Positions 24,992 through 48,595 of a DNA stretch of 64,000 nt are shown here, piece by piece. The DNA is taken from assembly GCF_025717515.1 (NCBI RefSeq), contig NZ_JAJIRN010000006.1, forward strand, positions 310,001 to 374,000, in the 5' to 3' direction. The stretch comes from Roseateles oligotrophus. Its GTDB lineage: Bacteria > Pseudomonadota > Gammaproteobacteria > Burkholderiales > Burkholderiaceae_C. How positions within the stretch are numbered: position 1 is the first letter of the stretch; each line of letters starts with the position of its first letter. The notes below the pieces were generated by a model that was given only the letters and a program-made list of their open reading frames with translations, had not been told where the DNA came from and ran no database searches. Made by a program: the position numbers and the translations under genes.

Positions 24992-25870
24992 CTACATCGC
25001 CCATAGGCGCGGCGGGGTGGCCGGCAGACCCCAGAGCTCATGGCGCCACAGGCCCCAAGCCTGACGCAGCAGATCCAAGCTCGGCTCCGTCAGCTCGCTG
25101 AGGGCGCGCAGGACCAGCACCTGGCCATGTGGGGCGGTAAGCCCGGCAAACTCACGCAAGGCATGTGTCTCGATCAACGCTCGCACGGCGTCAAGTGCGC
25201 GCTCTTGACGCGAGCGGGAGATCATCGAGCCGGCCGCGAACACCAGGGTGGCCAGGCAGCGCCGCCCTGCTAGCCCGAGCAGCCCGTTCATCAGCAAATC
25301 GTCTTCGGCTGCGATCAATCCCTGTTCTAGCCACACACCTTCGACCTCCAAATGCTGAGAAAAATGCCCGCGCTCGAAAGGATGACCGGAGACGGGCAGG
25401 CCCAGTGCGGTAATGTCCCAGCACATCATCTCGGCCCCCGGGGCCAACGCAAAACGGGCCTCGTTGCGCGCCTCGCAGCCGGGATAGGCCAATGCCTCCA
25501 AGGGCAACCATTCAAGCCGCGCGCCCGCTGCCAGCGTCGCTCGCACCGCTTGCGTGGCGATGGCCCCCGCCTCACTGCGATAAAAACGTGTGGCGCCCGG
25601 CGTGGTGAGCAGCCCATGTGCGCCTTCGCCCACCGCCACAGTCACCTGCAACCTGTCGCCGCCGACCAAGCCCCCGGGCGGATGGATCATCACGTTATGG
25701 CAGACCGCCTCGCTTTCCGGGTAAAGGCTCTTGAGGATGCGCAAAGGTCCGTCATGCTTGTAGCGCGCCACGCAGCGTCCGGCTTCGCGGGCATAGGACA
25801 AGTCCAAGTTGGCGCGCCAAGCCGAACCAAGCGCCTGGACTTGGGATGAAAACTCTGGGGATTTGCTCAT
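24992..25870 (-). CDS. ureD: Urease accessory protein UreD
   Basis: The 292-residue protein matches UreD/UreH: LDLSYAREAGRC near the start, GPLRILKSLYPE, HNVMIHPPGGLVGGDRLQ, TTPGATRFYRSEAG, and the C-terminal LPATPPRLWAM. UreD binds apo-urease and with UreF and UreG delivers nickel. ATG 25870 is preferred; an upstream ATG at 25936 adds an unconserved stretch. It is on the same strand as the other ure genes but separated from ureG by over 1 kb and a secreted-protein gene, an unusual position since ureD usually leads the operon. Confidence 0.93.
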   Translation of the reverse strand: MSKSPEFSSQVQALGSAWRANLDLSYAREAGRCVARYKHDGPLRILKSLYPESEAVCHNVMIHPPGGLVGGDRLQVTVAVGEGAHGLLTTPGATRFYRSEAGAIATQAVRATLAAGARLEWLPLEALAYPGCEARNEARFALAPGAEMMCWDITALGLPVSGHPFERGHFSQHLEVEGVWLEQGLIAAEDDLLMNGLLGLAGRRCLATLVFAAGSMISRSRQERALDAVRALIETHALREFAGLTAPHGQVLVLRALSELTEPSLDLLRQAWGLWRHELWGLPATPPRLWAM

Positions 25871-26064
25871 GCGGTCATTGCATGCAAGAACCAAGCCTGC
25901 GGCACTGACTTTCTGGATTGCATTCCTGGCGGCCAAAGCGACGGGGCGCTAGCGGCACTGGGCAGGCATGTCAGGTGCGTTAGTCCAATCGCTCGGGCTG
26001 TTGCGCAGCTCGGGTGCGCAGCCAATTGAAAATGGCTGCGCACCCGCTCATTCCTCCGCTCGGC

Positions 26065-26412
26065 TCAACGCAGTCGATCCATTTCATAGGCCACGCGCTC
26101 AACCGAGCCCTTGGCGTTGCGGAACAGTCGCACGCGGCGATGCCCGTCGGAACTCAAGAGCATGTCGGCGTTCTCGGCATGCCAGCGTTCGAGCGGCTGT
26201 CCATCTAGAGCCACCGCAATGCGGTGCACGCCAATGTCCACTTTGAGCGTTCGACCGTCTTCAAGGTCGTAATAGCCTGTGGCTTCGCGGAGCAGACTTC
26301 GCTCGGCAGCGGTACCGGGGATTTCAGGCGTACCGGCATGCGCAGACAAAGCAAGGGAAGCGAGAAACGCGGCCAGTAGTTTGAAAGAGCGCGCAATAGT
26401 CAAGGTGGTCAT
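26065..26412 (-). CDS. Small secreted protein of unknown function
   Basis: The 115-residue protein starts after AAAGGAG with good spacing and has a signal peptide (LLAAFLASLALSAHA). The mature part is about 90 residues (TAAERSLLREATGYYDLED; HRRVRLFRNAKG) with no family I can name. It lies between ureG and ureD on their strand, so it may be co-transcribed with ureD. A role in urease is not shown by the sequence. Confidence 0.6.
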   Translation of the reverse strand: MTTLTIARSFKLLAAFLASLALSAHAGTPEIPGTAAERSLLREATGYYDLEDGRTLKVDIGVHRIAVALDGQPLERWHAENADMLLSSDGHRRVRLFRNAKGSVERVAYEMDRLR

Positions 26413-27056
26413 GGTGATTACTCCTTTGGTTGATCCGAGGCCAGTCGCCCCGGCAAGCTCAGTGATTGCAAACCTCATGCCAGGCCAAAACACCTCTCTA
26501 CCTCGGCATTTCGCCCCATCGCTGGGCTTCATCCCCCATATCCGCGCCAAATTCAAGAATGCTGCACCGCAACATAGCACTCTGTCATGGCGGTCCAAGC
26601 GATCAACGGTGTCTTGTTGCCGGGCGAGCGCGTGCGGACCAAGGGCTTGATATTTGCCGCCACCCCGGCCACCGATTTCATCTGCGGCACGCTGCAATTG
26701 GCGACCCGCATGAATTTGCATACCTTCACCAGCGGGCGCAACACGCCCTATGGTCTGGCGGCCCCTACCTCGTGATCAAGGGCGCCACCCGCAAGAAGAC
26801 TTGGGCCGAGCATTGGAAACTGCAAAAAAGACTTGATGCTGTTCAACCGCGCTTCCATCACATGACAGCCGAATAACGCCAAGGGCGGACGGCATTGCGG
26901 CTTGCAGCCCAGCGCCCGCGCGCAATGCCCAACTCCTGACCTCGCCAGCTTTTATGCGGGTTGGTGGTCGATTCACTTGGCTGAGCAAACGCCAAGCGCA
27001 GCATCAATCCGGTCGCTCAACAGACCCAAAAACCTTCACGCCCGGCCAAATTCCAA
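26413..27056. other. 644-bp gap between ureG and the small secreted protein gene
   Basis: No intact gene is evident. The central part carries a possible frameshifted gene remnant on the plus strand (26587-26876). The gap interrupts what would otherwise be a continuous ureABCEFG-ureD transcript. Confidence 0.4.
26587..26876 (+). pseudogene. Possible frameshifted gene remnant, family unknown
   Basis: A 62-codon frame ([19 protein letters not shown], ending [11 protein letters not shown]) stops at 26775, while the neighbouring frame continues from about 26757 with [19 protein letters not shown] to 26876. Joining the two by a one-base shift gives a protein-like sequence of roughly 95 residues. 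I do not recognise the family. A chance open frame is possible, so this is tentative. Confidence 0.3.
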
Positions 27057-27704
27057 TCACCGAAGCAACATGCCGCGCTTCTCGATAAAGTCCACCACCT
27101 CGGCCACGCCGACGCTTGTCTTCAGATTCGTCATCACAAAAGGCTTGGTTCCGCGCATCCGCCTTGTGTCGCCCTCCATCACGTCGAGATTGGCGCCGAC
27201 ATGCGGCGCCAGATCGGTCTTGTTGATCACGAACAGATCGCTCTTGGTGATGCCGGGCCCGCCCTTGCGCGGGATCTTTTCACCGGCCGCGACGTCGATC
27301 ACATAGATCGTCAAATCGCTCAGCTCGGGGCTGAAGGTGGCGGCCAGGTTATCGCCGCCGGATTCAATGAACACCACATCGGCATCCGGGAACTTGGCCA
27401 GCATGCGGTCAATCGCTTCGAGGTTGATCGAGCAATCTTCGCGGATCGCCGTATGCGGGCAGCCGCCGGTCTCCACGCCCAGGATGCGCTCGGCCGGCAG
27501 CGCGCCGCTGACGGTCAGCAGGCGCTGATCTTCCTTGGTGTAGATGTCATTGGTGATGGCGACCAGGTCCCAGCGCTCGCGCATCGCCTTGCAGAGCATC
27601 TCCAGCAAGGTGGTCTTGCCCGAGCCGACCGGGCCGCCAATGCCGACCCGCAGCGGCGGCAGCTTTTTCGTGCGATGGGGGATTTGGTGGATTGCTGTGT
27701 TCAT
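27057..27704 (-). CDS. ureG: Urease accessory GTPase UreG
   Basis: The 215-residue GTPase has the P-loop [17 protein letters not shown], the metal-binding Cys-Pro-His in [13 protein letters not shown], the [17 protein letters not shown] switch region and the guanine-specific NKTD ([12 protein letters not shown]). UreG hydrolyses GTP to load nickel into urease with UreD, UreF and UreE. The start overlaps the ureF stop by ATGA, so translation is coupled. Confidence 0.96.
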
Positions 27705-28378
27705 GATCTGAATAGCCGTGAATATTGGGTTTCATGCCGCGCCGACAAAATCGCCAGCATCGGAGAAAAAGCCTGGCGTTGATCGCGCTCGGCCAGCGTC
27801 ATCGCCTGCGCCACCGCCTGAGGCATCTCGGCCGCCAAACGAGCCAAGATGCGCTGACCGGCGCTCTGGCCCAGCGGCACCGACTTGATCGCCGCACCCA
27901 CCATGTTCTCGGCCCAGCCGAAGGCATAGGCGAGCAAGGCATCGGCCAAGGCCGCGCCGCTGCCGGCCAGCGCCAAGGCCATCACCAGCGGATAGGTTGG
28001 CTGGCCCAGGGCCCGGCATTGCTCGATCTGCTCGGCGCTGGCCGTGTGATGGTTGCGCAGCCAATCCAGGAGCGAACGCCCCATCTGCTCGGACTGCAGG
28101 CGCAGCTCGGCCGTCTCGCGGGTCTGCAGCACCCAATCGTTCAGCCGTTTGAGAGCCGGCAGATCGCCTTCGCGCCAGGCCGGCAAGGCGCGCGCGGCCA
28201 GCGCCAAGTCGCCGCGCGTTTGCGTCAGCGCCAATTGCTGCGACAGCCATTCGGCGGCCGAGGCTTCGTCGCGCACCAGGCCATGCTCGACCGCCGACTC
28301 CAGGCCCTCGGAATAGGAAAACCCGCCAATCGGCAGCGCCGGCGAGGCCAGCCAGATCAATTGCAGCAGCGCGCTCAT
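27701..28378 (-). CDS. ureF: Urease accessory protein UreF
   Basis: The 225-residue all-helical protein shows the UreF opening [20 protein letters not shown], then [14 protein letters not shown] and a C-terminal [19 protein letters not shown]. UreF bridges UreD-urease and UreG in the activation complex. Both junctions, with ureE and ureG, are ATGA overlaps, marking a tightly coupled set. Confidence 0.95.
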
Positions 28379-28887
28379 GCGTGGCTGTGGCCGTGATCAT
28401 GCCCATGCCCATGCCCATGACTCGACGCATAGGCGCCGCCCTCGGGCTCGAAGGGCGCGTCCACCTCGGTGACCGTCAGATGCTGGGCACGCAGCATCTC
28501 GGCCAGCACATGGTCGGGCTCGATTTGCAGATAGTCGGGGCGCAGCTCGATAGGCACATGGCGATTGCCCAGATGGTAGGCCGCGCGTGTCAGATCGAAG
28601 GGCGAACCATGGCTGCTGCAGGCGCTGATGCGCAGCAGCGCTTGCGGCGCGGCAAGGACGCGAATGAGGCTGCCGTCCTCGGCGACCAATACATCGCCAC
28701 CCCGCAGCTGCGTGCCGCGAGGCAAGAAGATACCTAACTTGCGAGTCAAGCTGTCCTCAGCCTGGAAGCGGCTTTTCTGGCGGGTGTCCCAGTCCAGCCG
28801 CAGCTCGGCGGCGCGCTTGAGCAGCACCAGCGCCAGGCCCTGGCCTTGCGGCAATAATTTGGAAACTTGCAACATCGTGGCGCTCAC
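28375..28887 (-). CDS. ureE: Urease nickel metallochaperone UreE
   Basis: The 170-residue protein has the UreE N-terminal peptide-binding domain ([20 protein letters not shown]) and the metal-binding C-terminal domain ([12 protein letters not shown]). It ends in a His-rich tail [14 protein letters not shown], which binds extra nickel. UreE supplies nickel to UreG. It follows the GNAT gene with an ATGA overlap at 28884-28887. Confidence 0.95.
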
Positions 28888-29375
28888 AGCTCGATGCTCA
28901 TGAAGCAGCTATAGGGATCTTCCGCATAACTTCCAAACGGCGCGCATTGCAGAAAGCCCTCGCGCTGATACAGGCCTCGCGCCGGCGCAAAAAATGGTTG
29001 CGGGCCGGTCTCAAGGCTCAAGCGGCTAAAGCCCTGCAGGCGCGCTTGGCTCAACACATGGATCAGCATCGCACGCGCCAGCCCGCGGCCGCGCAACGCG
29101 GCGGCGGTGCGCATGGACTTCAGCTCAGCATGGCTGTCGTCCAGGCGCTTGATCGCCGCCGTGCCGGCCAGGGCTTCAACACCGGCTTCGTCCACCAACC
29201 AGGCCGACCAGAAGCTGATGCCGGGCTGGCGCAAGGCCGCCAGGTCGAGCGCATGCACGCTTTCCGGCGGCGAGGCGGCGCGCATGTCTTGCATATGCTC
29301 TTCAAGGAAGACCGCGATGCGCGGGTCGCTCAGATCGTCGAGGCGGACCAGTAATTCGGGGGCAAGCGTGGACAT
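28884..29375 (-). CDS. GNAT family N-acetyltransferase inside the urease operon
   Basis: The 163-residue protein has the GNAT core: MRTAAALRGRGLARAMLIHV (acetyl-CoA loop RGRGLA) and LSLETGPQPFFAPARGLYQR. It lies between ureC (15 bp away) and ureE (4-bp overlap), so it is part of the urease transcript. GNAT genes occur in some betaproteobacterial urease operons; the acceptor is unknown. Candidates are an amino-acid or amine substrate, not a urease subunit as such. Confidence 0.88.
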   Translation of the reverse strand: MSTLAPELLVRLDDLSDPRIAVFLEEHMQDMRAASPPESVHALDLAALRQPGISFWSAWLVDEAGVEALAGTAAIKRLDDSHAELKSMRTAAALRGRGLARAMLIHVLSQARLQGFSRLSLETGPQPFFAPARGLYQREGFLQCAPFGSYAEDPYSCFMSIEL

Positions 29376-29389
29376 GGTTTGAACTTGGT

Positions 29390-31119
<1,730 letters not shown>

Positions 31120-31120
<1 letters not shown>

Positions 31121-31425
31121 TACAAAGCCCCCTGGATCAAGCCGCGAAAGCCGTAAACGATGCGCTCGCCGGCCAGATCGACCAGCTCGACCGTGCGCTG
31201 CTGGCCGGGCTCGAAGCGCACCGCCAGACCGGAGGCGATATTCAAACGCATGCCGCGCGCGGCGGCCCGGTCGAAACTCAGCGCCGCATTGGTCTCGGCA
31301 AAGTGATAGTGCGAGCCGACCTGGATAGGCCTGTCGCCGGCGTTTTGCACCACCAGGACTAGCGTGCGCCGGCCGGGGTTGAGCTGATGCTCGCCAGCGG
31401 GCGTGAACAGCTCGCCCGGCGTCAT
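31120..31425 (-). CDS. ureB: Urease subunit beta UreB
   Basis: The 101-residue protein shows the UreB sequence [36 protein letters not shown] and [19 protein letters not shown]. It packs with UreA and UreC in the urease oligomer. Its start overlaps the stop of the small membrane protein gene by ATGA and its stop overlaps the ureC start. Confidence 0.96.
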
Positions 31426-31671: not shown

Positions 31672-31974
31672 TTACACAATCGGTTGATGCACGGTCACCA
31701 GCTTGGTGCCGTCGGGAAAGGTCGCCTCGACCTGGATGTCGGCAATCATCTCGGCGATGCCGTCCATCACATCGGCGCGGGTCAGCACATTGCGGCCCTC
31801 GCTCATCAGCTGGGCGACGGTCTTGCCGTCGCGGGCGCCTTCCATCACCGCCGCGCTGATGAAGGCCACGCTTTCCGGATAGTTGAGCTTGAGGCCGCGC
31901 GCCAGGCGGCGCTCGGCCAGCAAGGCGGCGGTGAAGATCAGCAGCTTGTCTTTCTCTCTAGGTGTGAGTTCCAT
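31672..31974 (-). CDS. ureA: Urease subunit gamma UreA
   Basis: The 100-residue protein matches UreA throughout: [60 protein letters not shown]. It is the first gene of the urease operon. A sigma-54 type promoter is visible at 32007-32022, some 35 bp upstream, pointing to nitrogen control. Confidence 0.97.
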
Positions 31975-32006
31975 TGCGGACCTACTCTGTTCAGTCCCTG
32001 TTTCTA

Positions 32007-32022
32007 AGCAAGGCCCGTGCCG
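32007..32022 (-). promoter_or_regulatory. ureA: Sigma-54 (RpoN) type promoter for the urease operon
   Basis: Read on the minus strand the element is CGGCACGGGCCTTGCT, which matches the -24/-12 consensus TGGCACG-N4-TTGCW at all but one position, with GG and GC separated by exactly ten bases. A transcript would start near 31997, about 22 bases before the ureA ATG. Sigma-54 needs an activator such as NtrC; its binding site would be upstream, within or beyond the start of the divergent gene. Confidence 0.7.
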
Positions 32023-32062
32023 TCTTGCGCGGGCACGAAAACTGCAACGCTCTCACTCAGCC

Positions 32063-35000
32063 ATGCACATCCCACCCTCAACTCCTTCATCAGCCGCCGC
32101 CGCCGCGCCGCAGCGCGTGATCAAGGTGCGGCGCGACTACAACGCCTGGGTGGCCAGCGAAACGCTGGAGGATTACGCGCTGCGCTACACGCCGCAACGC
32201 TTTCGGCGCTGGTCGAATTTCCGCGTCGCCAACACCGCTTTTGGCGCCGCCGCTTTTCTGATCCTGGAGGCGGTAGGCGCCACCTTGCTGGTGCAGTACG
32301 GCTGGGCCAATGCCTTCTGGGCCATCCTCGCCACCGGCCTGATCATCTTCCTGGCCGGCCTGCCGATCAGCATCTACGCGGCCCGCTACGGCGTCGATAT
32401 GGACTTGTTGACCCGAGGCGCCGGCTTTGGCTATATCGGCTCCACGCTCACCTCGCTGATCTACGCCTGCTTCACCTTCATCTTCTTTGCGCTGGAGGCC
32501 GCCGTGATGGCCTATGCGCTGGACCTCGCGCTGGACATCCCGCCGCGCTGGGGCTATCTGATCTGCGCTTTGGTGGTGATCCCGCTGGTCACGCACGGTG
32601 TGTCGGCCATCAGCCGGCTGCAATTGATCACCCAGCCGCTGTGGCTGCTCATGCTGTTGCTGCCCTTCGCGGTGGTGCTGGCCAAAGACCCCGCCGCGTT
32701 TGCGGGCGTTGTGCACCATGCTGGCTCGCAATCGCACGATGCCGGGTTTGGCTTGATCCACTTTGGTGCGGCGCTGACGGTGGGCATCGCCTTGATCACG
32801 CAAATGGGCGAGCAGGCCGACTATCTGCGCTTCATGCCGGCGCTCGGCGCCAAAGCCAGCAAAGCAGACAAGCGCCGCTGGTGGGCGGCCGTCTTGGTCG
32901 GCGGGCCGGGCTGGGTGCTGCTGGGCGTGCTCAAGATGCTGGGCGGCGCGCTCTTGGCCTGGTTGGCGCTGCAGCATATGGTGCCGCCCGAGCGCGCGGT
33001 GGACCCGAATCAGATGTATCTGGCCGCCTATGAATATGTGTTCCCGCATTACGGCTGGGCGGTCGCAGCCACCGCGCTGTTTGTGGTGGTTTCGCAGATC
33101 AAGATCAATGTCACCAATGCCTATGCAGGCTCGCTTGCCTGGAGTAACTTTTTCTCCAGACTGACCCACAGCCACCCCGGCCGCGTCGTCTGGGTGGTGT
33201 TCAACACCTTCATTGCCTTCATGCTGATGGAGATGAATGTGTTCGAGGCGCTGGGTCAGGTGCTGGGCCTGTATGCCAATGTGGCGATCGCCTGGATCAT
33301 GGCCGTGGTGGCCGATCTGGTGATCAACAAGCCGCTGGGTCTGTCGCCGCCTGGCATCGAGTTCAAGCGCGCTCATTTGTACGACATCAACCCGGTCGGC
33401 GTCGGTGCGATGGCGCTGGCCTCGCTGCTCTCGGTCGGCGCGCATCTGGGCCTGATGGGCGAGCTGGCACAGGCCTTCTCGGCCGTCATCGCGATGACCA
33501 CCGCTTTCGTCACGGCGCCCTTGATTGCCTGGGCCACCGGCGGGCGCTACTACCTGGCGCGCCGGCCAGCGCAGCAAGAAGAGCAAGCCCGCTGCTGCGT
33601 GATTTGCGAGCGCGAATATGAAGGCCCGGACATGGCGCAATGCCCCGCCTACCAGGGCCCGATCTGCTCGCTCTGCTGCACGCTGGACGCACGCTGCGGC
33701 GATTTATGCAAACCCGAGGCCAAACTCTCGGCGCAATGGCGCTCTGCCTTGCAAGCCGTCTTGCCGCGCAAGACCTGGCCCTGGCTGGACACCGGCCTGG
33801 GTCATTTTTTGCTGCTGATGGCGCTGCTGATGCCGATGCTGGCCGCGCTGTTCGGCCTGCTCTATCACCAGGAGCTGCGCAGCCTCGCCGGCGCTGCCAA
33901 TGCGGTGGCGCCCGCAGCGGCCGACAGCCTGCGCAATGGCTTTGTGAAGGCCTATCTGCTGCTCGGCGTTGGCGTCGGCATCGCGGCCTGGTGGCTGGTG
34001 CTGGCGCAGCAAAGCCGCGAGGTCGCGCAAGAGGAATCGAATCGGCAGACGCAAGCCTTGATGCTGGAGATTGCCTCGCATGCCCGCACCGACGAAGCCT
34101 TGCAAAGAGCCAAGGTCGCGGCCGAACAGGCGCAACAGAGCGCCGAGCAGGCCAACCAGGCCAAGAGCCGCTATGTCAGCACGATCAGCCATGAGCTGCG
34201 CACGCCGCTGAACAGCATCCTCGGCTATGCGCAGCTGATGGCCGAAGACGCCGAGCTGCCGCCGCGCCGCCGCCAAGCGGTGCAGGTGATCAAGCGCAGC
34301 GGCGAGCATCTGCTGCAGTTGATAGACGGCACCTTGGATCTGGCCCGCATCGAGGCCGGCAAGCTGTCGCTGGAACCGGCCGCGATGCCCTTCGAGGACG
34401 CGATGCATGAGCTGGCCGAAATGTTCGAGCTGCAAGCCGCCGCCAAAGGCCTTCACTTCCGCTTCGAGGTCATCGGCGAGCTGCCCAGCAGCGTGCGCGC
34501 GGATGAAAAACGCCTGCGCCAGATCCTGATCAATCTGCTCGGCAATGCCCTGAAGTTCACGCCCAAGGGTCAGGTCTTGCTGCGCGTGCGCCATGCGCGT
34601 GAGATTGCCTTGTTCGAGATCGAGGACAGTGGGCCCGGCCTCAGCAGCGAAGCGTTGAGCCGCATCTTCGAGCCCTTCACGCGCGGCAGCACGCGCGCCA
34701 CCGACGCCGCACCTGGGGCCGGTCTGGGCCTGACCATCGCCAAGATGCTGACCGAGCTGATGGGCGGCGAGTTGAGCGCCAGCAGCCAGCCCGGCCAGGG
34801 CTCGGTGTTCCGGGTCAAGCTGTTTTTGCCGGCGCTTGGGGGCCTGTCGCGGGGCCGCGAAACAGCGCCGCCAAGGCGTGGCTATGCCGGCCCGCGCCGG
34901 CAAATCCTGATCGTCGACAACGAAGCGGCCGACCGCCAATTGCTGAGCGAGCTATTGCAGCCGCTGGGCTTCGATGTGCGCAGCGCCGCCAGCGGCCATG

Positions 35001-35518
35001 ATGCGCTGGACCTGTTCGTCAGCGGCCTGCGGCCCGACGCGGTGTTGATGGATCTGGCCATGCCCGGCATCGACGGCTGGGAGACGATTCGCCGCCTGCG
35101 CTTGCTCACGCCCGCCTTGCTCAATATCGCCGTCGTCTCCGCCAATGCATTTGAGAAAGGCCAGGACAACGCGGCCTTTGGCATCGCCCAGGTGGACTTC
35201 ATCACCAAGCCGGTGCGCCATGCCGAGCTGCTGGACTGGCTGGGGCGCCGGCTTGGATTGCAATGGCTGGAGGCAGCGACCCTGGCTCCGGCGCAGCCCC
35301 CAAGACCCCTGGGTCTGGGCCCCGCCCTGCTGACGCCACTGCGCGAGGCGCTGAACCTCGGCTATTACCGCGGCGTACAGACCCAGCTGGACCTGATTGC
35401 CGGCGCCATACCCGAAAGCGCCGCCAGTGCAGCCTGGGTTGAGAGCCTGCGCGGCTTGGCGCGCCAATACCAATTCGAAACAATCTCAGACCTCCTGGGG
35501 CCGGAGCTCCGCGCATGA
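32063..35518 (+). CDS. NCS1 permease-like / hybrid histidine kinase fusion
   Basis: This 1151-residue protein joins an NCS1 (purine-cytosine permease-like) transporter module (about residues 50-500, roughly twelve helices), a Cys-rich segment (Cys511, Cys512, Cys515 to about 550) that looks metal-binding, two more membrane helices, a coiled linker, a HisKA domain with His710 in TISHELRTPLNSI, a HATPase (NLLGNALKFT; GAGLGLTIAKM) and a receiver with Asp997. It probably senses a nucleobase, allantoin or urea through the transporter fold. It is divergent from ureA and coupled by ATGA to a response regulator. ATG 32063 is the start; the frame upstream overlaps ureA. Confidence 0.9.
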   Translation: MHIPPSTPSSAAAAAPQRVIKVRRDYNAWVASETLEDYALRYTPQRFRRWSNFRVANTAFGAAAFLILEAVGATLLVQYGWANAFWAILATGLIIFLAGLPISIYAARYGVDMDLLTRGAGFGYIGSTLTSLIYACFTFIFFALEAAVMAYALDLALDIPPRWGYLICALVVIPLVTHGVSAISRLQLITQPLWLLMLLLPFAVVLAKDPAAFAGVVHHAGSQSHDAGFGLIHFGAALTVGIALITQMGEQADYLRFMPALGAKASKADKRRWWAAVLVGGPGWVLLGVLKMLGGALLAWLALQHMVPPERAVDPNQMYLAAYEYVFPHYGWAVAATALFVVVSQIKINVTNAYAGSLAWSNFFSRLTHSHPGRVVWVVFNTFIAFMLMEMNVFEALGQVLGLYANVAIAWIMAVVADLVINKPLGLSPPGIEFKRAHLYDINPVGVGAMALASLLSVGAHLGLMGELAQAFSAVIAMTTAFVTAPLIAWATGGRYYLARRPAQQEEQARCCVICEREYEGPDMAQCPAYQGPICSLCCTLDARCGDLCKPEAKLSAQWRSALQAVLPRKTWPWLDTGLGHFLLLMALLMPMLAALFGLLYHQELRSLAGAANAVAPAAADSLRNGFVKAYLLLGVGVGIAAWWLVLAQQSREVAQEESNRQTQALMLEIASHARTDEALQRAKVAAEQAQQSAEQANQAKSRYVSTISHELRTPLNSILGYAQLMAEDAELPPRRRQAVQVIKRSGEHLLQLIDGTLDLARIEAGKLSLEPAAMPFEDAMHELAEMFELQAAAKGLHFRFEVIGELPSSVRADEKRLRQILINLLGNALKFTPKGQVLLRVRHAREIALFEIEDSGPGLSSEALSRIFEPFTRGSTRATDAAPGAGLGLTIAKMLTELMGGELSASSQPGQGSVFRVKLFLPALGGLSRGRETAPPRRGYAGPRRQILIVDNEAADRQLLSELLQPLGFDVRSAASGHDALDLFVSGLRPDAVLMDLAMPGIDGWETIRRLRLLTPALLNIAVVSANAFEKGQDNAAFGIAQVDFITKPVRHAELLDWLGRRLGLQWLEAATLAPAQPPRPLGLGPALLTPLREALNLGYYRGVQTQLDLIAGAIPESAASAAWVESLRGLARQYQFETISDLLGPELRA

Positions 35519-36528
35519 ATGAGGTTCTCAAGTCAGACGGCCTGCTGGCCCTTCAAGGCGGTGACCTGGTGCTGATCGTTGACGACATGCCGGACAACGT
35601 CCGCGTGCTGCACGACGCGCTGGACGAAAGCGGCTACACCGTGTTGGTGGCCACCAGCGGTGAAACGGCCCTGCAACGCGCCACCCAGGCGCTGCCCGAC
35701 ATCATCTTGCTGGACGCGATGATGCCCGGCATGGACGGCTTCGAAGTGGCGCGCCGCCTGAAGGCCAGCACCGCCACCGCGCATATCCCGATTGTCTTCA
35801 TGACCGGCTTGACCGAGACCGAACACCTGGTCGCGGCGCTGGACGCCGGCGGCGTTGACTATGTGACCAAGCCGATCAAGCCCAAGGAGGTGTTGGCCCG
35901 CATGCAGGTGCATTTGCGCGGCGCGCGCCAGGCGCAGGGCGCCGTGCAGACCCGCCGCGCGCTCGATGCTTTTGGCTACGCCAGCATCACGGTGCGGGTG
36001 AGTGACGGCCGACTGATGTGGCAGACGCCGCTGGCGCGGGAGCTGCTCAGCGACTATTTCGGCGCGATGGGTGAGTTGACGCCCGCGCCGGTGCTGGCCT
36101 GGCTGCGTCGCCATGTGCCGGCGGCACGCGAGCAGCAAATCGAGCCGCCGCGCTTTTATGCCGAACTGGGCGCGCGCCGCCTGAGCTTTGCGCTGCATCA
36201 GCAGATGGGCGGCGAGGAGGAGGCGGAAGACGCAGGCGACGGCGAAAGCAGCGACTGGCTGATCGTGATGCGCGAAGTATCGGACCTGGCCATCATCGAA
36301 GCGATGGGCCTGAACTTCAAGCTCACCGCCCGCGAGGCCGAGGTGCTGTACTGGGTCGTCAAGGGCAAGATCAACCGCGATATTGCCGACATCCTGGGCG
36401 CCAGCCCCGCCACCGTGAAGAAGCACCTGGAGCGGGTGTTTTCGAAGTTAGGGGTGGAGACTCGGACCTCGGCCGCGGCGATGGCTTTGAACCGGATTCG
36501 GGCGCTGCATCCGCATTGGGAGTTGTAA
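35515..36528 (+). CDS. Response regulator with receiver and LuxR-type output
   Basis: The 337-residue regulator has a receiver domain (about 17-135; LIVDDMPDN, phospho-acceptor Asp67 in ILLDAMMPGMDG, lysine in VTKPIKP), a middle region of about 130 residues of unclear fold, and a LuxR helix-turn-helix at about 272-330 (LTAREAEVLYWVVKGKINRD). Its start overlaps the kinase stop (ATGA), so it is the kinase's cognate partner. Likely targets are the divergent urease operon or a permease elsewhere; this is inference. Confidence 0.92.
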   Translation: MNEVLKSDGLLALQGGDLVLIVDDMPDNVRVLHDALDESGYTVLVATSGETALQRATQALPDIILLDAMMPGMDGFEVARRLKASTATAHIPIVFMTGLTETEHLVAALDAGGVDYVTKPIKPKEVLARMQVHLRGARQAQGAVQTRRALDAFGYASITVRVSDGRLMWQTPLARELLSDYFGAMGELTPAPVLAWLRRHVPAAREQQIEPPRFYAELGARRLSFALHQQMGGEEEAEDAGDGESSDWLIVMREVSDLAIIEAMGLNFKLTAREAEVLYWVVKGKINRDIADILGASPATVKKHLERVFSKLGVETRTSAAAMALNRIRALHPHWEL

Positions 36529-36635: not shown

Positions 36636-38018
36636 ATGAATGCCACCAGACGGCTGACTTCGCTCACTCAAACTCAGCAAATTGAGCGTGCTTTAGCTGT
36701 GGGCCCGCTGTCAGCGGCGCAACTTGTTGCTGTGCTTGGAATCAGCCAGCCAACCCTGTCGCGAACTATTCGTGACATGTCTGCTTCGGTGTCCAGCTTC
36801 CGCGTCACCGGCGACCGCACACCGCGCTACGCGATGCTCCGTTCATTGCCAATGGGCCTGAACCCCCGGCAGCGTGTCTACCGGCATATGAGCCAAGGCA
36901 ATATCGAGCCTTTTGCAGACCTGGAGTTCCTCGCGGGCGGGGCCACGCTGGAGCGCAGTGGCACTGTCACTCGCTTGTACGAGGGGCTGCCGCCCTATCT
37001 GCGGTTTGCCGCCCCGTCTGGCTTCCTCGGCCGCCAGCTGGCCCAAGAGGCGGCACGTACCCTGCCTTTCCCTGGCAGCCTGAAGGATTGGGGGGATGAC
37101 CATTGCTTGGCCTACCTCTTCACGCGAGGCATCAACCTGCCTGGCAATCTTGTTTTCGGTGACGCCTGCCTGCAGATGGAGCTCGATTTCCGCAGCCTGC
37201 GCCCCACCGCCGTCGACAGCAAACTCGAACATTACGAAGGGATGGCGGCCGCGCTCAAGGGTGCGACCTACGGCTCCAGCGCCGGTGGCGAGCAGCCGAA
37301 ATTTCTCTGGTTGACCGAGGATGCTGGCCACGTCATCGTGAAGTTTGCCAAGCTCGGCAGCCGCATGGCTGAATTGCTGCCGCTCGAGCATCTGGCGCTG
37401 CGCTCATTGGCCGAGGTCGGTGTGCCGGCCTGCCGTACTCGGCTGCTGACTTCTGATGCCTACGTTTTCCTGGAGATCCAGAGGTTCGACCGCATGGGCC
37501 TGCATGGCCGCATCGGGATGCTCTCGGCCGGCGCTGTTGACGATGAATTCTTCGGCAAGCGGGACACCTGGCCGGAGTTCGTGGCAAGGTGCGAGCAAGC
37601 GAAGTACCTCAGCCCTGCCGACGCACGCCTTGTCGACACCATGGCCGCCTTCAGCGAGCTGATTGGGAACACCGACCGCCACTTCGAGAACATCTCCTTG
37701 CTGATTCGCGAGGACGGTGAATACCAAGGCATTGCGCCCGCCTACGACATCCTGCCGATGCGCTACGCCTCGATCGGGGGCGGCCTTGACCCCGACCTTG
37801 TGGACATCGAGCCGAAGATCGGCAGCATCGGAGCGAAGCCGGCGGTATGGGCAAAGGCCGCTGCGGCTGCGGATCGCTTTTGGCGGGCCGCCATGACAGA
37901 AGATTTGTCGGCGCCGATTTCGCCTGCGATGCGTGCTTGGGCGCAACGAAATCTTCAAGTGGCCAAGGCGTTTGCAGCGCCGTTGTTGCCCATGCCCATG
38001 CCCTTGCCCTTGCCCTGA
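36636..38018 (+). CDS. yjjJ: HipA family kinase of the YjjJ/HipH type
   Basis: The 460-residue protein has an N-terminal winged helix (QIERALAVGPLSAAQLVAV, ISQPTLSRTIRDM) followed by a HipA-like kinase domain: GSSAGGEQPKFLW as the nucleotide loop, HVIVKFAKLG with the ATP lysine, catalytic GNTDRHFENISLL and the metal-binding aspartate in APAYDILPMRYA. This arrangement, helix-turn-helix fused in front with no separate HipB, matches E. coli YjjJ (HipH). It probably phosphorylates a translation component or other protein. It ends in an odd Pro-Met-Pro-Leu repeat tail. No ribosome binding site is obvious, so it may be leaderless. Confidence 0.88.
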   Translation: MNATRRLTSLTQTQQIERALAVGPLSAAQLVAVLGISQPTLSRTIRDMSASVSSFRVTGDRTPRYAMLRSLPMGLNPRQRVYRHMSQGNIEPFADLEFLAGGATLERSGTVTRLYEGLPPYLRFAAPSGFLGRQLAQEAARTLPFPGSLKDWGDDHCLAYLFTRGINLPGNLVFGDACLQMELDFRSLRPTAVDSKLEHYEGMAAALKGATYGSSAGGEQPKFLWLTEDAGHVIVKFAKLGSRMAELLPLEHLALRSLAEVGVPACRTRLLTSDAYVFLEIQRFDRMGLHGRIGMLSAGAVDDEFFGKRDTWPEFVARCEQAKYLSPADARLVDTMAAFSELIGNTDRHFENISLLIREDGEYQGIAPAYDILPMRYASIGGGLDPDLVDIEPKIGSIGAKPAVWAKAAAAADRFWRAAMTEDLSAPISPAMRAWAQRNLQVAKAFAAPLLPMPMPLPLP

Positions 38019-43747: not shown

Positions 43748-45022
43748 ATGCTGCAACGCCGCCACTTCTCCCTCAAGACCCTGGCCGCCGCCAGCGCCGT
43801 CGCCGGCCTGAGCTTCACCGGACTCAATGTGCAAGCCGCCGACACCATCAAGGTCGGCGTGCTGCACAGCCTGTCCGGCACCATGGCGATCTCGGAGACC
43901 GTGCTCAAGGACACCGTCTTGATGGCGATTGACGAGATCAATGCCAAGGGCGGCGTGCTGGGCAAAAAGCTCGAGCCGGTGATCGTCGACCCGGCCTCCA
44001 ACTGGCCGCTGTTCGCCGAGAAGACCAAGCAGCTGCTGACCCAAGACAAGGTGGCCGTGATCTTCGGCTGCTGGACCTCGGTGTCGCGCAAGTCGGCGCT
44101 GCCGGTGCTGGAAGAACTCAACGGCCTGCTGTTCTACCCGGTGCAGTACGAGGGCGAAGAGCTGAGCAAGAACGTGTTCTACACCGGCGCCGCGCCGAAC
44201 CAGCAGGCCATCCCTGCGGTGGACTACCTGATGAGCAAGGACGGCGGCGCGGCCAAGCGCTGGGTGCTGCTGGGCACCGACTATGTTTACCCCCGCACCA
44301 CCAACAAGATCCTGCGCGCCTACCTGAACAGCAAGGGCGTGAAGGATTCGGACATCGACGAGAAGTACACCCCGTTCGGCCACAGTGACTACCAGACCAT
44401 CGTCGCCGACATCAAGAAGTTCTCGGCCGGCGGCAAGACCGCCGTGGTGTCGACCATCAATGGCGACTCCAATGTGCCCTTCTACAAGGAGCTGGGCAAT
44501 GCCGGCCTGAAGGCCAAGGATGTGCCGGTGGTGGCCTTCTCGGTCGGCGAAGAAGAGCTGCGCGGCGTGGACACGAAACCACTGGTCGGCCACCTGGCCG
44601 CCTGGAACTATTTCATGTCGATCAAGAACCCGAGCAATAGCGAATTCATCAGCAAATGGACCGCCTATGCCAAGGCCAAGAACCTGCCCGGCCACAAGGA
44701 CAAGCCGCTGACCAATGACCCGATGGAGGCGACCTATATCGGCATCAATATGTGGAAGCAGGCGGTTGAAAAGGCCAAGAGCACCGAGGTGGACAAGGTC
44801 ATCGCCGCGATGGCCGGCCAGACCTACACCGCGCCCAGCGGCATCACCTCCAAGATGGACGAGAAGAACCACCATCTGCACAAGTCGGTGTTCATCGGCG
44901 AGATCAAGGCCGACGGTCAGTTCAATGTGGTCTGGAAAACCCCGGCCCCGGTCAAGGCCAAGCCTTGGAGCCCCTTCATCGCGGGCAATGACGTCAAGCC
45001 CGATGAGCCGGTGAAGAAATAA
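43748..45022 (+). CDS. urtA: Urea ABC transporter substrate-binding protein UrtA
   Basis: The 424-residue periplasmic protein starts MLQRRHFSLKTLAAASA, a twin-arginine-like signal (RRHFSLK), and has UrtA features: IKVGVLHSLSGTMAISE, IFGCWTSVSRKSALPVLEEL, LFYPVQYEGEE and YVYPRTTNKILRAYL. It binds urea and delivers it to UrtBC. It leads a five-gene urt operon; the 207-bp upstream gap probably holds the promoter, though I found no sigma-54 match there. Confidence 0.96.
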   Translation: MLQRRHFSLKTLAAASAVAGLSFTGLNVQAADTIKVGVLHSLSGTMAISETVLKDTVLMAIDEINAKGGVLGKKLEPVIVDPASNWPLFAEKTKQLLTQDKVAVIFGCWTSVSRKSALPVLEELNGLLFYPVQYEGEELSKNVFYTGAAPNQQAIPAVDYLMSKDGGAAKRWVLLGTDYVYPRTTNKILRAYLNSKGVKDSDIDEKYTPFGHSDYQTIVADIKKFSAGGKTAVVSTINGDSNVPFYKELGNAGLKAKDVPVVAFSVGEEELRGVDTKPLVGHLAAWNYFMSIKNPSNSEFISKWTAYAKAKNLPGHKDKPLTNDPMEATYIGINMWKQAVEKAKSTEVDKVIAAMAGQTYTAPSGITSKMDEKNHHLHKSVFIGEIKADGQFNVVWKTPAPVKAKPWSPFIAGNDVKPDEPVKK

Positions 45023-45042: not shown

Positions 45043-46638
45043 ATGAAGCGCCTGCTGAATTCAATGTTATGTTGCCTGCTTTTGTGGCCCTGCGTCACAC
45101 AGGCCTTGACGCCGCAGCAGGCGCTCGCGCTGGCGACCGGCGATGGCGACGAGCGCAGCGCCGTGCTGCAAGCGATCGTCGCGGCCCCGGACGCCAGCAG
45201 CACAAGGCTGCTGCTGGCCATGAAGGCCGAACAAGTGAAGCTGGACCCGGCGCGCCAAGTTTTGCTCATCGTCGCCGCCAATGGCGATATGCAGGACGCG
45301 CTTACGGGCAAGCCGCTGACCCAGGTGCCGGCGGCTCTGGAAGACGTGATGCTGAACAACCGCCTGCGCGGCGAGCTGGATCAAGCGCTGGCGGTCTTGC
45401 AGCTGTTCGCGCCGGCTACTGGCTCTGAGCGACTCGCTGCCGCGCGGGCCTTGCAGCAGGACGCCAAGATCGACTATCTGCCCATGCTGGACATGGCGCT
45501 GACTAAAGAAGCAGACACCGCAGTCCGTACGGAGTTGGCGCTGGCAAGAGCCGCTGCGCTGTCCTTCAGCCCGGTCGCAGATCAGCGCCTGCTAGCGGCC
45601 AAACTGCTCGGTGCCTCGCGCAGCCCGGCCACCCAATTGTTGTTGAACCAGCGCCTGGCCGAGGAAACCGACCCCGACGTCAAAAGCGCCTTGAAGAACT
45701 CGCTGCGCAGCCTGGAATCCACGCTGGCGTTTGGCGAGCGCCTGGGCGCCTTGTTCACCGGCCTGAGCCTGGGCAGCATCTTGCTGCTGGTGGCACTCGG
45801 CCTGGCCATCACCTACGGGCTGATGGGCGTGATCAATATGGCGCATGGCGAGCTGATGATGATTGGCGCCTACGCCACCTATCTGGTGCATCTGGCCTTT
45901 CGCCAATGGTTGCCGCCGAGCTGGTTTGACTATTACCTCGTCTTGGCCTTGCCGGCGGCCTTCCTCGCCGCCGCAGCGGTGGGCGCGTTGATGGAGCGGC
46001 TGGTGCTGCGCTGGCTGTATGGGCGGCCGCTGGAATCGCTGCTGGCGACCTGGGGCCTGAGCCTGATGCTGATGCAGACGGTACGCAGCCTGTTCGGCGC
46101 GCAAAACGTCGGCGTCGAGAACCCGGCCTGGATGAGCGGTGGCTGGCAGGTCTTGCCGAATCTGAGCCTGCCCTTCAATCGCCTAATGATCATTGTCTTT
46201 GCCGGCCTGGTGCTGGGCGGCATGACGCTGCTGATCAAGCGCACGCGCTTGGGCCTGTTCGTGCGCGGCGTGACGCAGAACCGGCCCATGGCCTCCTGCA
46301 TGGGCGTCAACACCGCCCGCGTCGACACCTATGCTTTTGCGCTGGGCTCCGGCATCGCGGGCCTGGCCGGCTGTGCGCTGAGTCAGGTCGGCAATGTCGG
46401 GCCGGATCTGGGCCAGAGCTATATCGTCGACGCCTTCATGGTGGTGGTGCTGGGCGGCGTCGGGCAATTGGCCGGCACCGTCTATGCGGCGCTGGGCCTG
46501 GGGCTGCTGAACAAGTTGCTGGAGGGATTTGTCGGCGCCGTGCTGGCCAAGATCGCCGTGCTGGTCTTCATCATCATCTTCATCCAGAAGCGCCCGCAAG
46601 GCATCTTCGCGGTGAAGGGCCGGGCGGTGGAAGCATGA
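45043..46638 (+). CDS. urtB: Urea ABC transporter permease UrtB
   Basis: The 531-residue protein has a signal peptide, a long periplasmic N-terminal region (about 20-235) as usual for UrtB, then a LivH-like permease (LGLAITYGLMGVINMAHGEL, MVVVLGGVGQLAGTVYAALG). With UrtC it forms the membrane channel for urea. It follows urtA by 20 bp and overlaps urtC by ATGA. Confidence 0.95.
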   Translation: MKRLLNSMLCCLLLWPCVTQALTPQQALALATGDGDERSAVLQAIVAAPDASSTRLLLAMKAEQVKLDPARQVLLIVAANGDMQDALTGKPLTQVPAALEDVMLNNRLRGELDQALAVLQLFAPATGSERLAAARALQQDAKIDYLPMLDMALTKEADTAVRTELALARAAALSFSPVADQRLLAAKLLGASRSPATQLLLNQRLAEETDPDVKSALKNSLRSLESTLAFGERLGALFTGLSLGSILLLVALGLAITYGLMGVINMAHGELMMIGAYATYLVHLAFRQWLPPSWFDYYLVLALPAAFLAAAAVGALMERLVLRWLYGRPLESLLATWGLSLMLMQTVRSLFGAQNVGVENPAWMSGGWQVLPNLSLPFNRLMIIVFAGLVLGGMTLLIKRTRLGLFVRGVTQNRPMASCMGVNTARVDTYAFALGSGIAGLAGCALSQVGNVGPDLGQSYIVDAFMVVVLGGVGQLAGTVYAALGLGLLNKLLEGFVGAVLAKIAVLVFIIIFIQKRPQGIFAVKGRAVEA

Positions 46639-47726
46639 AGAACTTGCCACACACACAACTGCTCAGCCCCAAAGGCTGGCTGAGCTTCGCCAGCGCGCTG
46701 CTGGTCATCTGCCTGCTGGCACCCATGCTCAACCTCTGGGTGCCCGAGGGTCAGGTCTTGCATCTGAGCGACTATGCGGTGGGCCTGCTGGGCAAGTTCA
46801 TGTGCTACGCGATCTGCGCGCTGGCGATGGATTTGATCTGGGGTTTTGCCGGCATTTTGTCGCTGGGCCATGGCCTGTTCTTTGCACTCGGCGGCTACGT
46901 GATGGGCATGTATCTGATGCGCCAGATCGGCAGCGACGGCCAATACCAAAGCGCGCTGCCCGACTTCATGGTGTTCCTGGACTGGAACGCGCTGCCCTGG
47001 CATTGGAGCTTCAGCGACAGCCTCATCGCCACCCTGATCCTGATCCCGCTGGTGCCCGGCCTGGTCGCCTTTGTGTTCGGCTTCTTTGCCTTTCGCTCGC
47101 GCATCAAGGGCGTCTACTTTTCCATCATCACGCAGGCGCTGACCTATGCGGCGATGCTGCTGTTCTTCCGCAATGAGACCGGCTTTGGCGGCAATAACGG
47201 CTTCACCGACTTCAAACGCATTGCCGGCCTGACGATCGCCACGCCCCAGATGCGCATGCTGCTGTTCGTCTTGAGTGGCCTGTCCCTGCTGGGTTGCTAT
47301 TTGCTGGCGCGCTGGCTGACACGCAGCAAGTTCGGCCGCGTGCTGCAGGCGGTGCGTGATGCCGAATCCCGACTGATGTTCTGCGGCTACTCGCCGTTCG
47401 CCTACAAGTTGGGCGTCTGGACGCTGTCTGCCGTGATGTGCGGTGTGGCCGGCGCGCTCTATGTGCCGCAGGTCGGCATCATCAACCCGAGCGAGATGAG
47501 CGTGGCCAATTCGATCGAGATCGCGGTGTGGGCGGCGGTCGGTGGGCGCGGCACGCTGCTGGGCCCCATCGTCGGTGCCTTTTTGGTCAACGGCGCCAAG
47601 AGCTGGTTGACGGTCAGCGCGCCGGAGATCTGGCTCTATTTTCTGGGCGCGCTGTTCATTGCGGTCACGCTATTTCTACCGAACGGTCTGGCGGGCCTGA
47701 TCAAATTCAAGGGCAAAACATCATGA
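46635..47726 (+). CDS. urtC: Urea ABC transporter permease UrtC
   Basis: The 363-residue LivM-like permease has about ten hydrophobic segments with GFAGILSLGHGLFFALGGYV, FRNETGFGGNNGFTDFK and SIEIAVWAAVGGRGTLLGP. It pairs with UrtB. Both junctions are ATGA overlaps. Confidence 0.95.
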   Translation: MKNLPHTQLLSPKGWLSFASALLVICLLAPMLNLWVPEGQVLHLSDYAVGLLGKFMCYAICALAMDLIWGFAGILSLGHGLFFALGGYVMGMYLMRQIGSDGQYQSALPDFMVFLDWNALPWHWSFSDSLIATLILIPLVPGLVAFVFGFFAFRSRIKGVYFSIITQALTYAAMLLFFRNETGFGGNNGFTDFKRIAGLTIATPQMRMLLFVLSGLSLLGCYLLARWLTRSKFGRVLQAVRDAESRLMFCGYSPFAYKLGVWTLSAVMCGVAGALYVPQVGIINPSEMSVANSIEIAVWAAVGGRGTLLGPIVGAFLVNGAKSWLTVSAPEIWLYFLGALFIAVTLFLPNGLAGLIKFKGKTS

Positions 47727-48595
47727 CCCCCGATCTGATGGAGCAAGGCAGCGAGCGGCTGCAGCACAAGAAGGAAGTCGACGAAAACAAAGGCAGCTCG
47801 GGCGGGCGCAATGCCGGTTACTCCCGCATACACGAACCCGGCGCCTTGGACCTGGCGCATGGCCGCATCCTTTACCTGGAAGAGGTCAGCGTCTCCTTCG
47901 ACGGCTTTCGCGCCATCAACAAGTTGTCGCTGGACATTGCACCGGGCGAGTTGCGCTGCATCATCGGGCCCAATGGTGCCGGCAAGACCACGATGATGGA
48001 CATCATCACCGGCAAGACCCGACCCGACGCCGGCCAGGTTTTCTTCGGCAGCACCATCGACCTCTTGCGCCACAGCGAGGCCGAGATCGCCGGTCTGGGC
48101 ATTGGCCGCAAGTTCCAGAAGCCGACCGTGTTCGAAGCGCTGACCGTGTTCGAGAACCTGGAGCTGGCGCTCAAGTCGCCGCGCGGTGTGGCGTCCGCGC
48201 TCTGGCACCGGCTCAGCGGCGTGCAGCGCGACCGCCTCGGCGAGGTGTTGACGCTGATTCAATTGAGCGATCAATGGCAACGGCCGGCCGGCCTGCTCAG
48301 CCATGGCCAGAAGCAATGGTTGGAAATCGGCATGCTTTTGATGCAGGAGCCCAAGCTGCTGCTGCTGGACGAGCCGGTGGCGGGCATGACGGACCAGGAA
48401 ACCGAGCGCACGGCGGAGCTGTTTTTGTCACTGAAGGGCAAGCATTCGCTGATCGTGGTGGAGCATGACATGAGCTTCATCGCGCGCATCTCCGAGATCG
48501 TCACCGTGCTGTGCGAGGGCGCGGTGCTGGCCCAGGGCACGCTGGCCCAGGTGCAGGCGGACGAACGGGTGATCGAGGTCTATTTAGGACGATGA
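47723..48595 (+). CDS. urtD: Urea ABC transporter ATP-binding protein UrtD
   Basis: The 290-residue ATPase has Walker A GPNGAGKTT, the LivG-like FQKPTVFEALTVFENLELAL, signature LLSHGQKQWLEIGMLL and Walker B LLLLDEPVAGM. Residues 1-50 form a hydrophilic extension before the ATPase domain. ATG 47723 overlaps the urtC stop; the long frame upstream lies within urtC. The stop overlaps urtE by ATGA. Confidence 0.95.
   Translation: MTPDLMEQGSERLQHKKEVDENKGSSGGRNAGYSRIHEPGALDLAHGRILYLEEVSVSFDGFRAINKLSLDIAPGELRCIIGPNGAGKTTMMDIITGKTRPDAGQVFFGSTIDLLRHSEAEIAGLGIGRKFQKPTVFEALTVFENLELALKSPRGVASALWHRLSGVQRDRLGEVLTLIQLSDQWQRPAGLLSHGQKQWLEIGMLLMQEPKLLLLDEPVAGMTDQETERTAELFLSLKGKHSLIVVEHDMSFIARISEIVTVLCEGAVLAQGTLAQVQADERVIEVYLGR

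Follow-up and report, generated by a model that had tools for sequence, protein, structure and literature searches.

An NCS1-fold hybrid histidine kinase beside the urease genes of Roseateles oligotrophus, a candidate sensor of urea and short-chain amides

A kinase-regulator pair with an NCS1-fold membrane domain

We analysed a 64,000-nucleotide stretch of the Roseateles oligotrophus genome (assembly GCF_025717515.1, contig NZ_JAJIRN010000006.1, positions 310,001 to 374,000; hereafter the window, with positions counted from its first letter), in which a hybrid histidine kinase with a transporter-like membrane domain is encoded next to the urease genes. The kinase gene (32063–35518, + strand, stop codon included) lies in an open reading frame at 31883–35518 (+), whose internal ATG at 32063 gives a protein of 1151 amino acids. 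It is followed by the gene for a LuxR-type response regulator of 337 amino acids (35515–36528, +), composed of a receiver and a GerE/LuxR helix-turn-helix domain according to Pfam, and the regulator ATG overlaps the kinase stop codon (35516–35518). Along the kinase, all on the + strand, follow an NCS1-fold membrane domain (about residues 52–491; 32216–33535), supported by the helices of an AlphaFold model, Foldseek and hhalign alignment to an NCS1 profile; an eight-cysteine module (residues 512–549; 33596–33709); two further long helices, presumably in the membrane, that run into a coiled coil in the main AlphaFold model (residues 579–611 and 617–698; 33797–34156); and the Pfam domains HisKA (residues 700–766; 34160–34360) with the phospho-acceptor His710, HATPase_c (residues 814–922; 34502–34828) and Response_reg (residues 948–1058; 34904–35236), a receiver with Asp997. 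HisKA, HATPase and receiver in a single chain constitute the layout of a hybrid histidine kinase, and His710, the N box, the G boxes and Asp997 are all present, as is the phospho-acceptor motif of the regulator. At an E-value of 0.001, Pfam matched only these three domains in the kinase and neither SLC5 nor STAC. A preliminary description, made from the sequence alone, had read the same architecture of NCS1 fold, Cys-rich segment, histidine kinase, receiver and LuxR-type partner, and Pfam, profiles and the structural model bear it out.

Relatives of the kinase were collected in three locus sets, which together hold 165 loci, 164 of them distinct (one was counted twice; loci L031 (G010) and L060 (Roseateles koreensis hw8) are identical over the compared part), in counts that depend on the tblastn thresholds. 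Set A consists of the 31 places, other than the window's own, found among 59 related genomes, and set B of the top 80 of the relatives found in GTDB genomes, which number at least 578. For set C, 398 genomes from across the phylum were searched. Of the 62 rows obtained, 54 loci were kept; the others were the window itself, a locus shared with set A, two pieces, a row that was not fetched and three non-kinase proteins. In this search, 54 of the 398 genomes had a match, which was only a plain transporter in G250 and only a fragment in G292. The His box and N box of the kinase are kept in all 77 long GTDB members. Three distant kinases are shorter (L051, L206 and L217; 885–913 amino acids); these adjoin FmdA, and the open reading frame next to L051 begins receiver-like by eye.

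The Pfam NCS1 model PF02133 did not match the membrane domain of the kinase even at an E-value of 10; the same model does find a true NCS1 gene elsewhere in the genome of the window. Profile-profile alignment with hhalign revealed remote sequence homology to NCS1 symporters spanning transmembrane helices (TM) 1 to 10: 166 family rows aligned to NCS1 rows without bridge proteins at a probability of 99.2 and an E-value of 7.7e-20 (6e-17 in an earlier run with fewer family rows), the NCS1 profile being built from 14 rows with one gene included twice (L220 and L222). Moreover, a plain transporter of 497 amino acids, L218, matches the kinase family at 4.5e-50 and PF02133 at 3.6e-9, over its cut-off. 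An AlphaFold model of 684 residues (mean predicted local distance difference test 81.9, predicted template modelling score (pTM) 0.82) was compared with the PDB by Foldseek, which returned 138 matches at E-values of at most 0.001. Ranks 1 to 5 were three Mhp1 and two CodB chains, with E-values of 3.3e-9 to 1.4e-7 and template modelling scores by target of 0.66–0.78; other LeuT-type folds began at 4.6e-6, and SLC5 types ranked below NCS1. Sequence searches of the PDB, run with the membrane part or the A1 profile as query, found nothing. Because profile-profile alignment, the L218 bridge and the fold search agree, we conclude that the membrane domain is an NCS1 fold, as the preliminary description had it. 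L218 (7949–9442, + strand of its locus) is also the nearest free-standing transporter to the kinase domain and a useful outgroup for the sensor family; a carbon-nitrogen hydrolase-like open reading frame lies downstream of it by eye, and L218 is a possible amide or nitrile transporter.

The cysteine module contains eight regularly spaced cysteines in the pattern CxxC-x11-C-x7-CxxCC-x5-C-x3-C, matching a Cys-rich segment at residues 511–550 that had been pointed out as a probable metal site. This pattern is present in 79 of the 80 GTDB loci, the exception being the truncated locus L121, and in all 28 phylum-sample proteins picked by start pattern from the 54 loci. The eight cysteines are invariant in the alignments, and their number of ligands fits a binuclear zinc finger of the RING/PHD/ZZ class. 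A profile of the module matched in 34 of 249 genomes; by coordinates, all matches fall in the kinase family save two weak ones, in G173 (E-value 8.7e-5, an 80-residue frame with stops) and G145 (0.008). Among the fold matches listed for a model of the module (pTM 0.42), most were RING, PHD and similar fingers without significance (lowest E-value 0.44), and the profile matched PDB sequences at E-values above 0.5 only. Since twelve NCS1 helices precede it, the module is expected to be cytoplasmic, and we consider it probably a binuclear zinc finger.

Urea and amide genes around the kinase family

In the window, the urease genes are divergent from the kinase, as described earlier, with 88 bp separating ureA from the kinase start. 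The three urease subunit genes extend from 31974 to 29390 on the − strand: ureA (gamma; 31672–31974) and ureB (beta; 31120–31425) were assigned by Pfam and ureC (alpha; 29390–31120) by a further scan. They are followed by ureE, ureF and ureG (27057–28887, −), of which UreG was scanned (cobW/HypB/UreG) while the names ureE and ureF follow gene order and size, and by ureD (24992–25936, −; Pfam). Downstream of the kinase, at 43.7–49.3 kb on the + strand, lie genes of a urea ATP-binding cassette (ABC) transporter that the preliminary description had missed: urtA, the binding protein (43748–45022; TIGR03407 over cut-off, also recovered by a search of the window's own genome), urtB and urtC (45043–47726; TIGR03409 and TIGR03408 over cut-off) and urtE (48511–49302; TIGR03410 over cut-off), with an open reading frame at 47438–48595, just before urtE, that is presumably urtD.

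This setting recurs across the family, and its recurrence is the strongest of the results. In set A, urease, urt, fmdA or amiE genes were found nearby in 30 of 31 loci (21 urea, 9 amide), the remaining one lying at a contig end. Urea context was found for 65 of the 80 loci of set B; six of the 15 without it are cut short. With marker proteins taken from the window and sets A and B as queries, genes for urease, a urea transporter or formamidase/amidase were recognised near 53 of the 54 set C loci (36 amide, 17 urea), with the nearest marker at most 6.5 kb away (median 354 bp); by our own estimate, made without a computed control, about two in 100 random genes would lie that near such a cluster. 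The sole set C locus without context, L188, stops 393 bp upstream of the kinase, and a fragment of a urtA-like gene is visible there. Markers were confirmed over cut-off on examples for UrtA (TIGR03407), FmdA (NF045496), the FmdB zinc ribbon and aliphatic amidase (NF009802).

The family divides into two types, defined in the 59 related genomes by identity in the transmembrane part: a urea type (at least 76%; 22 genomes) and an amide type (54–64%; nine genomes), with the more distant G037 (49%) left out of both. All 22 genomes with the urea type have urease alpha over cut-off, compared to 35 of the 59 genomes overall (P 1.6e-7), and the amide type is present in nine of the ten genomes with FmdA over cut-off and in none of the 49 without (P 8e-10); the shared ancestry of the relatives means that these Fisher values overstate independence, a first point against the interpretation developed below. 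The crossed pairs of type and enzyme were not associated (P 0.56 and 0.46). Such a double dissociation, of urea type with urease and of amide type with FmdA, is hard to explain otherwise than by two subfamilies that track two substrates, urea and amide. In a quick tree with unlabelled rows left out and long branches flagged, urea versus amide context required four changes over 149 labelled rows, and eight genomes (G004, G019, G020, G028, G281, G302, G431 and G215) carry both types, each at its own cluster.

Several further observations concern neighbouring genes. A GNAT acetyltransferase (28884–29375, −) lies between ureC and ureE in the window and in many, not all, relatives, and a 218-residue open reading frame between ureG and ureD (26065–26721, −) had no Pfam or NCBIfam match at the thresholds used. 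After the regulator follows a YjjJ-like HipA-family gene (36699–38018, +; 340 bits against a cut-off of 401), without a match in the relatives' neighbourhoods that were scanned. In L033 (G020:C1:4304889-4306593), urease alpha is broken into three pieces that occupy different reading frames, owing to frameshifts or sequencing errors; the kinase gene next to it is intact. NAD-linked formate dehydrogenase-like genes (NuoF-like and FdhA-like) adjoin two amide-type kinases, L046 (13010–18000; scanned) and L048 (11192–16999; called by homology), and would oxidise formate derived from formamide. Farther off in the window, a gene at 11831–14086 (+) fuses a VTT membrane domain to a pyridine nucleotide-disulphide oxidoreductase; close to it are encoded a DUF3641 protein of the radical SAM class and an ABC binding protein of the phosphonate type.

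The substrate pocket and the ureA-kinase gap

The site residues of CodB include two aromatics that stack on cytosine (PMC9379551). In all 12 hhalign runs, CodB Trp108 (TM3) pairs with kinase residue 141, which is Phe in 157 and Leu in nine of the 166 rows. CodB Phe204 (TM6) likewise pairs with residue 245 in 12 of 12 runs, after a gap there in an earlier run, and this residue is Ile in 104 rows, Val in 41, Met in 16, Leu in three and Phe in one. In the same 12 runs, CodB Gln105 pairs with the invariant Thr138, and CodB position 112 pairs with residue 145, a Glu in 165 of 166 rows. Helix spacing presumably puts residue 145 at the substrate ligand Gln121 of Mhp1, taking Trp117 of Mhp1 as the anchor. 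Further residues of the pocket region are invariant in 166 of 166 rows (Glu69, Gln247, Glu250, Asp253, Lys347, Asn349 and Asn352). In TM8, Lys347 aligned to Thr278 of the Na2 site in six of six runs with bridge proteins in the NCS1 profile. Without them, all six runs introduced a gap, pairing Lys347 with Asn275 and placing a Val opposite Thr278.

On these alignments, the loss of the aromatic substrate clamp across the kinase family is firm, and a position of Lys347 at the sodium site is plausible. Because Lys347 (166/166) and Glu145 (165/166) are conserved where the clamp and perhaps the Na2 site have changed, the lost clamp and the conserved pocket residues suggest a retooled receptor, neither a decayed domain nor a sodium symporter. 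The preliminary description had held that uniform loss of substrate- and ion-binding residues would speak against a transceptor: the family-wide loss of the clamp, perhaps with the Na2 hydroxyl pair, falls on that side, and the invariant replacements at the same places fall on the other. Three columns, at residues 91, 280 and 285, distinguish the urea type from the amide type at a level of at least 85% within each group, and none of them is an evident pocket residue. A level of at least 70% gives 21 such columns. Among them are the clamp residue of TM6, 245, where Ile predominates in the urea type and Val in the amide type, and the neighbouring residues 242, 248 and 252. Reading ligand specificity from these columns was dropped for too little signal.

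Promoters of the sigma54 class follow the consensus GG-N10-GC with flanking consensus. Two back-to-back sites between ureA and the kinase match this consensus with flanks: GGCACGGGCCTTGC toward ureA (32008–32021, −) and GGCACGAAAACTGC toward the kinase (32032–32045, +), both conserved in close relatives and enriched in divergent regions. The ureA-kinase gaps of close relatives contain two conserved blocks, GGCACG-N4-YTGC, pointing away from each other, and the strict sigma54-like pattern has five matches in the whole 64 kb. Strict sites were present in 78 divergent regions 49 times toward ureA, 36 times toward the kinase and 24 times in both directions, compared to 3.0% of random windows of the same loci with a site in one direction. 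The putative ureA site leaves a normal leader. As the kinase site would leave only about 6 nucleotides, its use is doubtful.

A proposed sensor and its alternatives

Taken together, we consider it likely that the kinase and its regulator work as a two-component system in which a retooled NCS1 pocket recognises urea or short-chain amides and whose output governs their utilisation. A role in sensing urea or a similar amide is probable because the kinase adjoins urea- or amide-use genes nearly everywhere examined. Urea, or formamide and other short-chain amides in the sister subfamily, would bind in the central pocket of the NCS1 receptor, in which aliphatic and smaller aromatic residues replace the aromatic clamp, with buried charges nearby and a lysine that may fill the sodium site. 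A resulting change in helix packing would pass through the cytoplasmic, probably zinc-binding, eight-cysteine module and the two additional membrane helices to the coiled coil and His710. Under modulation by the receiver it carries, the kinase would then phosphorylate the co-translated LuxR-type regulator, which would activate ure and urt or, in the sister subfamily, amide genes (a urt-like transporter, fmdA and amiE). For the urea type, the sigma54-like sites in the ureA-kinase gap suggest that these promoters are also gated, via sigma54, by nitrogen limitation, so that expression would need both nitrogen hunger and substrate.

In addition to the shared ancestry behind the Fisher values, several results weigh against this proposal. 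Strict sigma54-like sites are rare in the amide type (4/45 toward the kinase, 1/45 away) and in other urea loci (5/26 and 1/26), so sigma54 control is not general across the family; loci without context had 1/17 in each direction. A dyad search of the ureA-kinase regions found no convincing regulator operator, the best dyad occurring in 5 of 78 against a shuffle maximum of 4. Nine loci of set B have flanks of at least 8.5 kb on both sides without a marker gene nearby. All nine genomes carry a urease alpha gene or piece elsewhere (over cut-off in seven), six have urtA over cut-off, and in L061 urease would lie just past the fetched flank if contig C1 is contig 1 of the record. The receiver Asp pattern was matched in just 30 of the 77 long GTDB members and the G2 box in 69, which may reflect a narrow pattern or true loss. 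Finally, ammonia or nickel, and not urea, could be what the kinase responds to.

Four other explanations were weighed. A true transceptor, whose NCS1 domain still imports urea or amide, perhaps coupled to protons, with signalling following transport, is a possibility of some substance and less probable than a dedicated receptor. The fold is complete and its polar and charged residues are invariant, and CbrA moves histidine by proton motive force, so that a sodium-independent kinase-coupled transporter exists (PMC13022988). However, most loci adjoin a dedicated ABC urea/amide transporter or a urease cluster, and urt lies in the same window, making another route of uptake unnecessary; Ks-Amt5, also a transporter-fused kinase, is described as sensing instead of transporting (PMC12918730). 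It is unlikely that the kinase senses a consequence of urea use (ammonium, pH or nickel), with the NCS1 fold as a structural relic. Urease produces ammonium and requires nickel, and the urea type does adjoin urease, but the amide type adjoins formamidase clusters and tracks FmdA, not urease, and eight genomes hold the amide type plus a second copy serving urea genes. Moreover, a relic would hardly have kept the 158 invariant columns that the membrane and Cys part shows when 16 diverse sequences are aligned.

A purine, allantoin or other nucleobase-derived ligand, with urease downstream of that pathway, seems a little more remote still. Urea can end allantoin breakdown. Nucleobases, hydantoin and allantoin are known substrates of NCS1 transporters (PMC13390362). 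Against such a ligand, the two aromatics of CodB that stack on cytosine are replaced by Phe/Leu and Ile/Val/Met, and the amide type adjoins fmdA and amiE, whose enzymes are not known to act in purine breakdown. Of the ligands named in the preliminary description, urea has strong support from context and phyletic pattern and is here widened to short-chain amides; purine and allantoin are not supported, the recurrent identified neighbours being urea and amide genes, in data for which no search aimed at purine or allantoin genes was made. An accidental adjacency to urease in the window is contradicted by 53 of the 54 phylum-sample loci and the phyletic match, and is very improbable.

Transporter-fused kinases themselves are known. 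CrbS/CrbR (acetate) and RpuS/RpuR (pyruvate) similarly combine a transporter-fused histidine kinase with a LuxR-type regulator in small-nutrient control, and CrbS is, like the window kinase, a hybrid kinase with a LuxR-type partner (PMC5715377, PMC9100948). In contrast to these, the window kinase belongs to the NCS1 branch of the LeuT fold, not to SLC5, has no STAC match but the eight-cysteine module and two helices in its place, and lies in urea/amide context. The analogy to SLC5-fused kinases drawn earlier holds well for the layout, likewise that of CrbS, but not for SLC5/STAC identity, for which there was no Pfam match. CbrA/CbrB of Pseudomonas shares the transceptor architecture and a sodium-independent transporter domain and differs in its SLC5, STAC and PAS domains, its sigma54-dependent activator partner and its ligand histidine (PMC13022988). 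Ks-Amt5 of Kuenenia likewise uses a nitrogen-compound transporter fold as kinase sensor, but with an Amt fold, ammonium as ligand and an anammox host (PMC5764959, PMC12918730). The NCS1 symporters Mhp1 and CodB have fold and remote homology in common with the window kinase, which lacks their aromatic clamp and carries a fused kinase. UreR, an AraC-type activator, and AmiC/AmiR, with a soluble amide-binding protein, respond to urea or short amides without a membrane receptor kinase, and the urea-responsive regulators we know of are all soluble.

Two published gene pairs fit the kinase family in size and place, as far as their descriptions in the accessible parts of the sources go, which give no function: Dechloromonas aromatica 583663/583664, a 1131-residue histidine kinase and a 308-residue CheY-like receiver near UrtA (PMC2907700), and Ectopseudomonas guguanensis HK/rcsC, a hybrid histidine kinase with a LuxR-type regulator by urt operon III (PMC13296017). 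The ammonia sensor kinase GrtK of Burkholderia glumae was rejected as a counterpart (427 amino acids, PilS-like membrane domain and Fis-type partner). In line with the preliminary description, which knew of no described function, none was found in the open-access literature for an NCS1-fused kinase or the kinase-regulator pair, and a term search of a paper on an NCS1 metformin transporter found histidine kinases unmentioned in its main text. Compared to the SLC5/STAC kinases CbrA, CrbS and RpuS and the Amt kinase Ks-Amt5, what appears to be new is the NCS1-derived receptor. That this is the first membrane receptor kinase for urea or short amides, with the NCS1 clamp removed, a lysine in place of sodium, a zinc module confined to the family and a duplication into urea and amide specialists that share a cell, we regard as an even chance.

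Bacterial urea use bears on soil nitrogen loss and fertiliser chemistry. If the proposal is true, a widespread membrane receptor kinase for urea and amides, with relatives encoded in at least 578 GTDB stretches, would fill a regulator gap. It would also be a case of a transporter turned receptor, in which the nearest relative without a kinase, the loss of the clamp and a lysine close to the sodium site permit point-by-point tests, and two natural specialists in one genome would be built-in controls for ligand specificity. A direct use would be a modular biosensor for urea or formamide.

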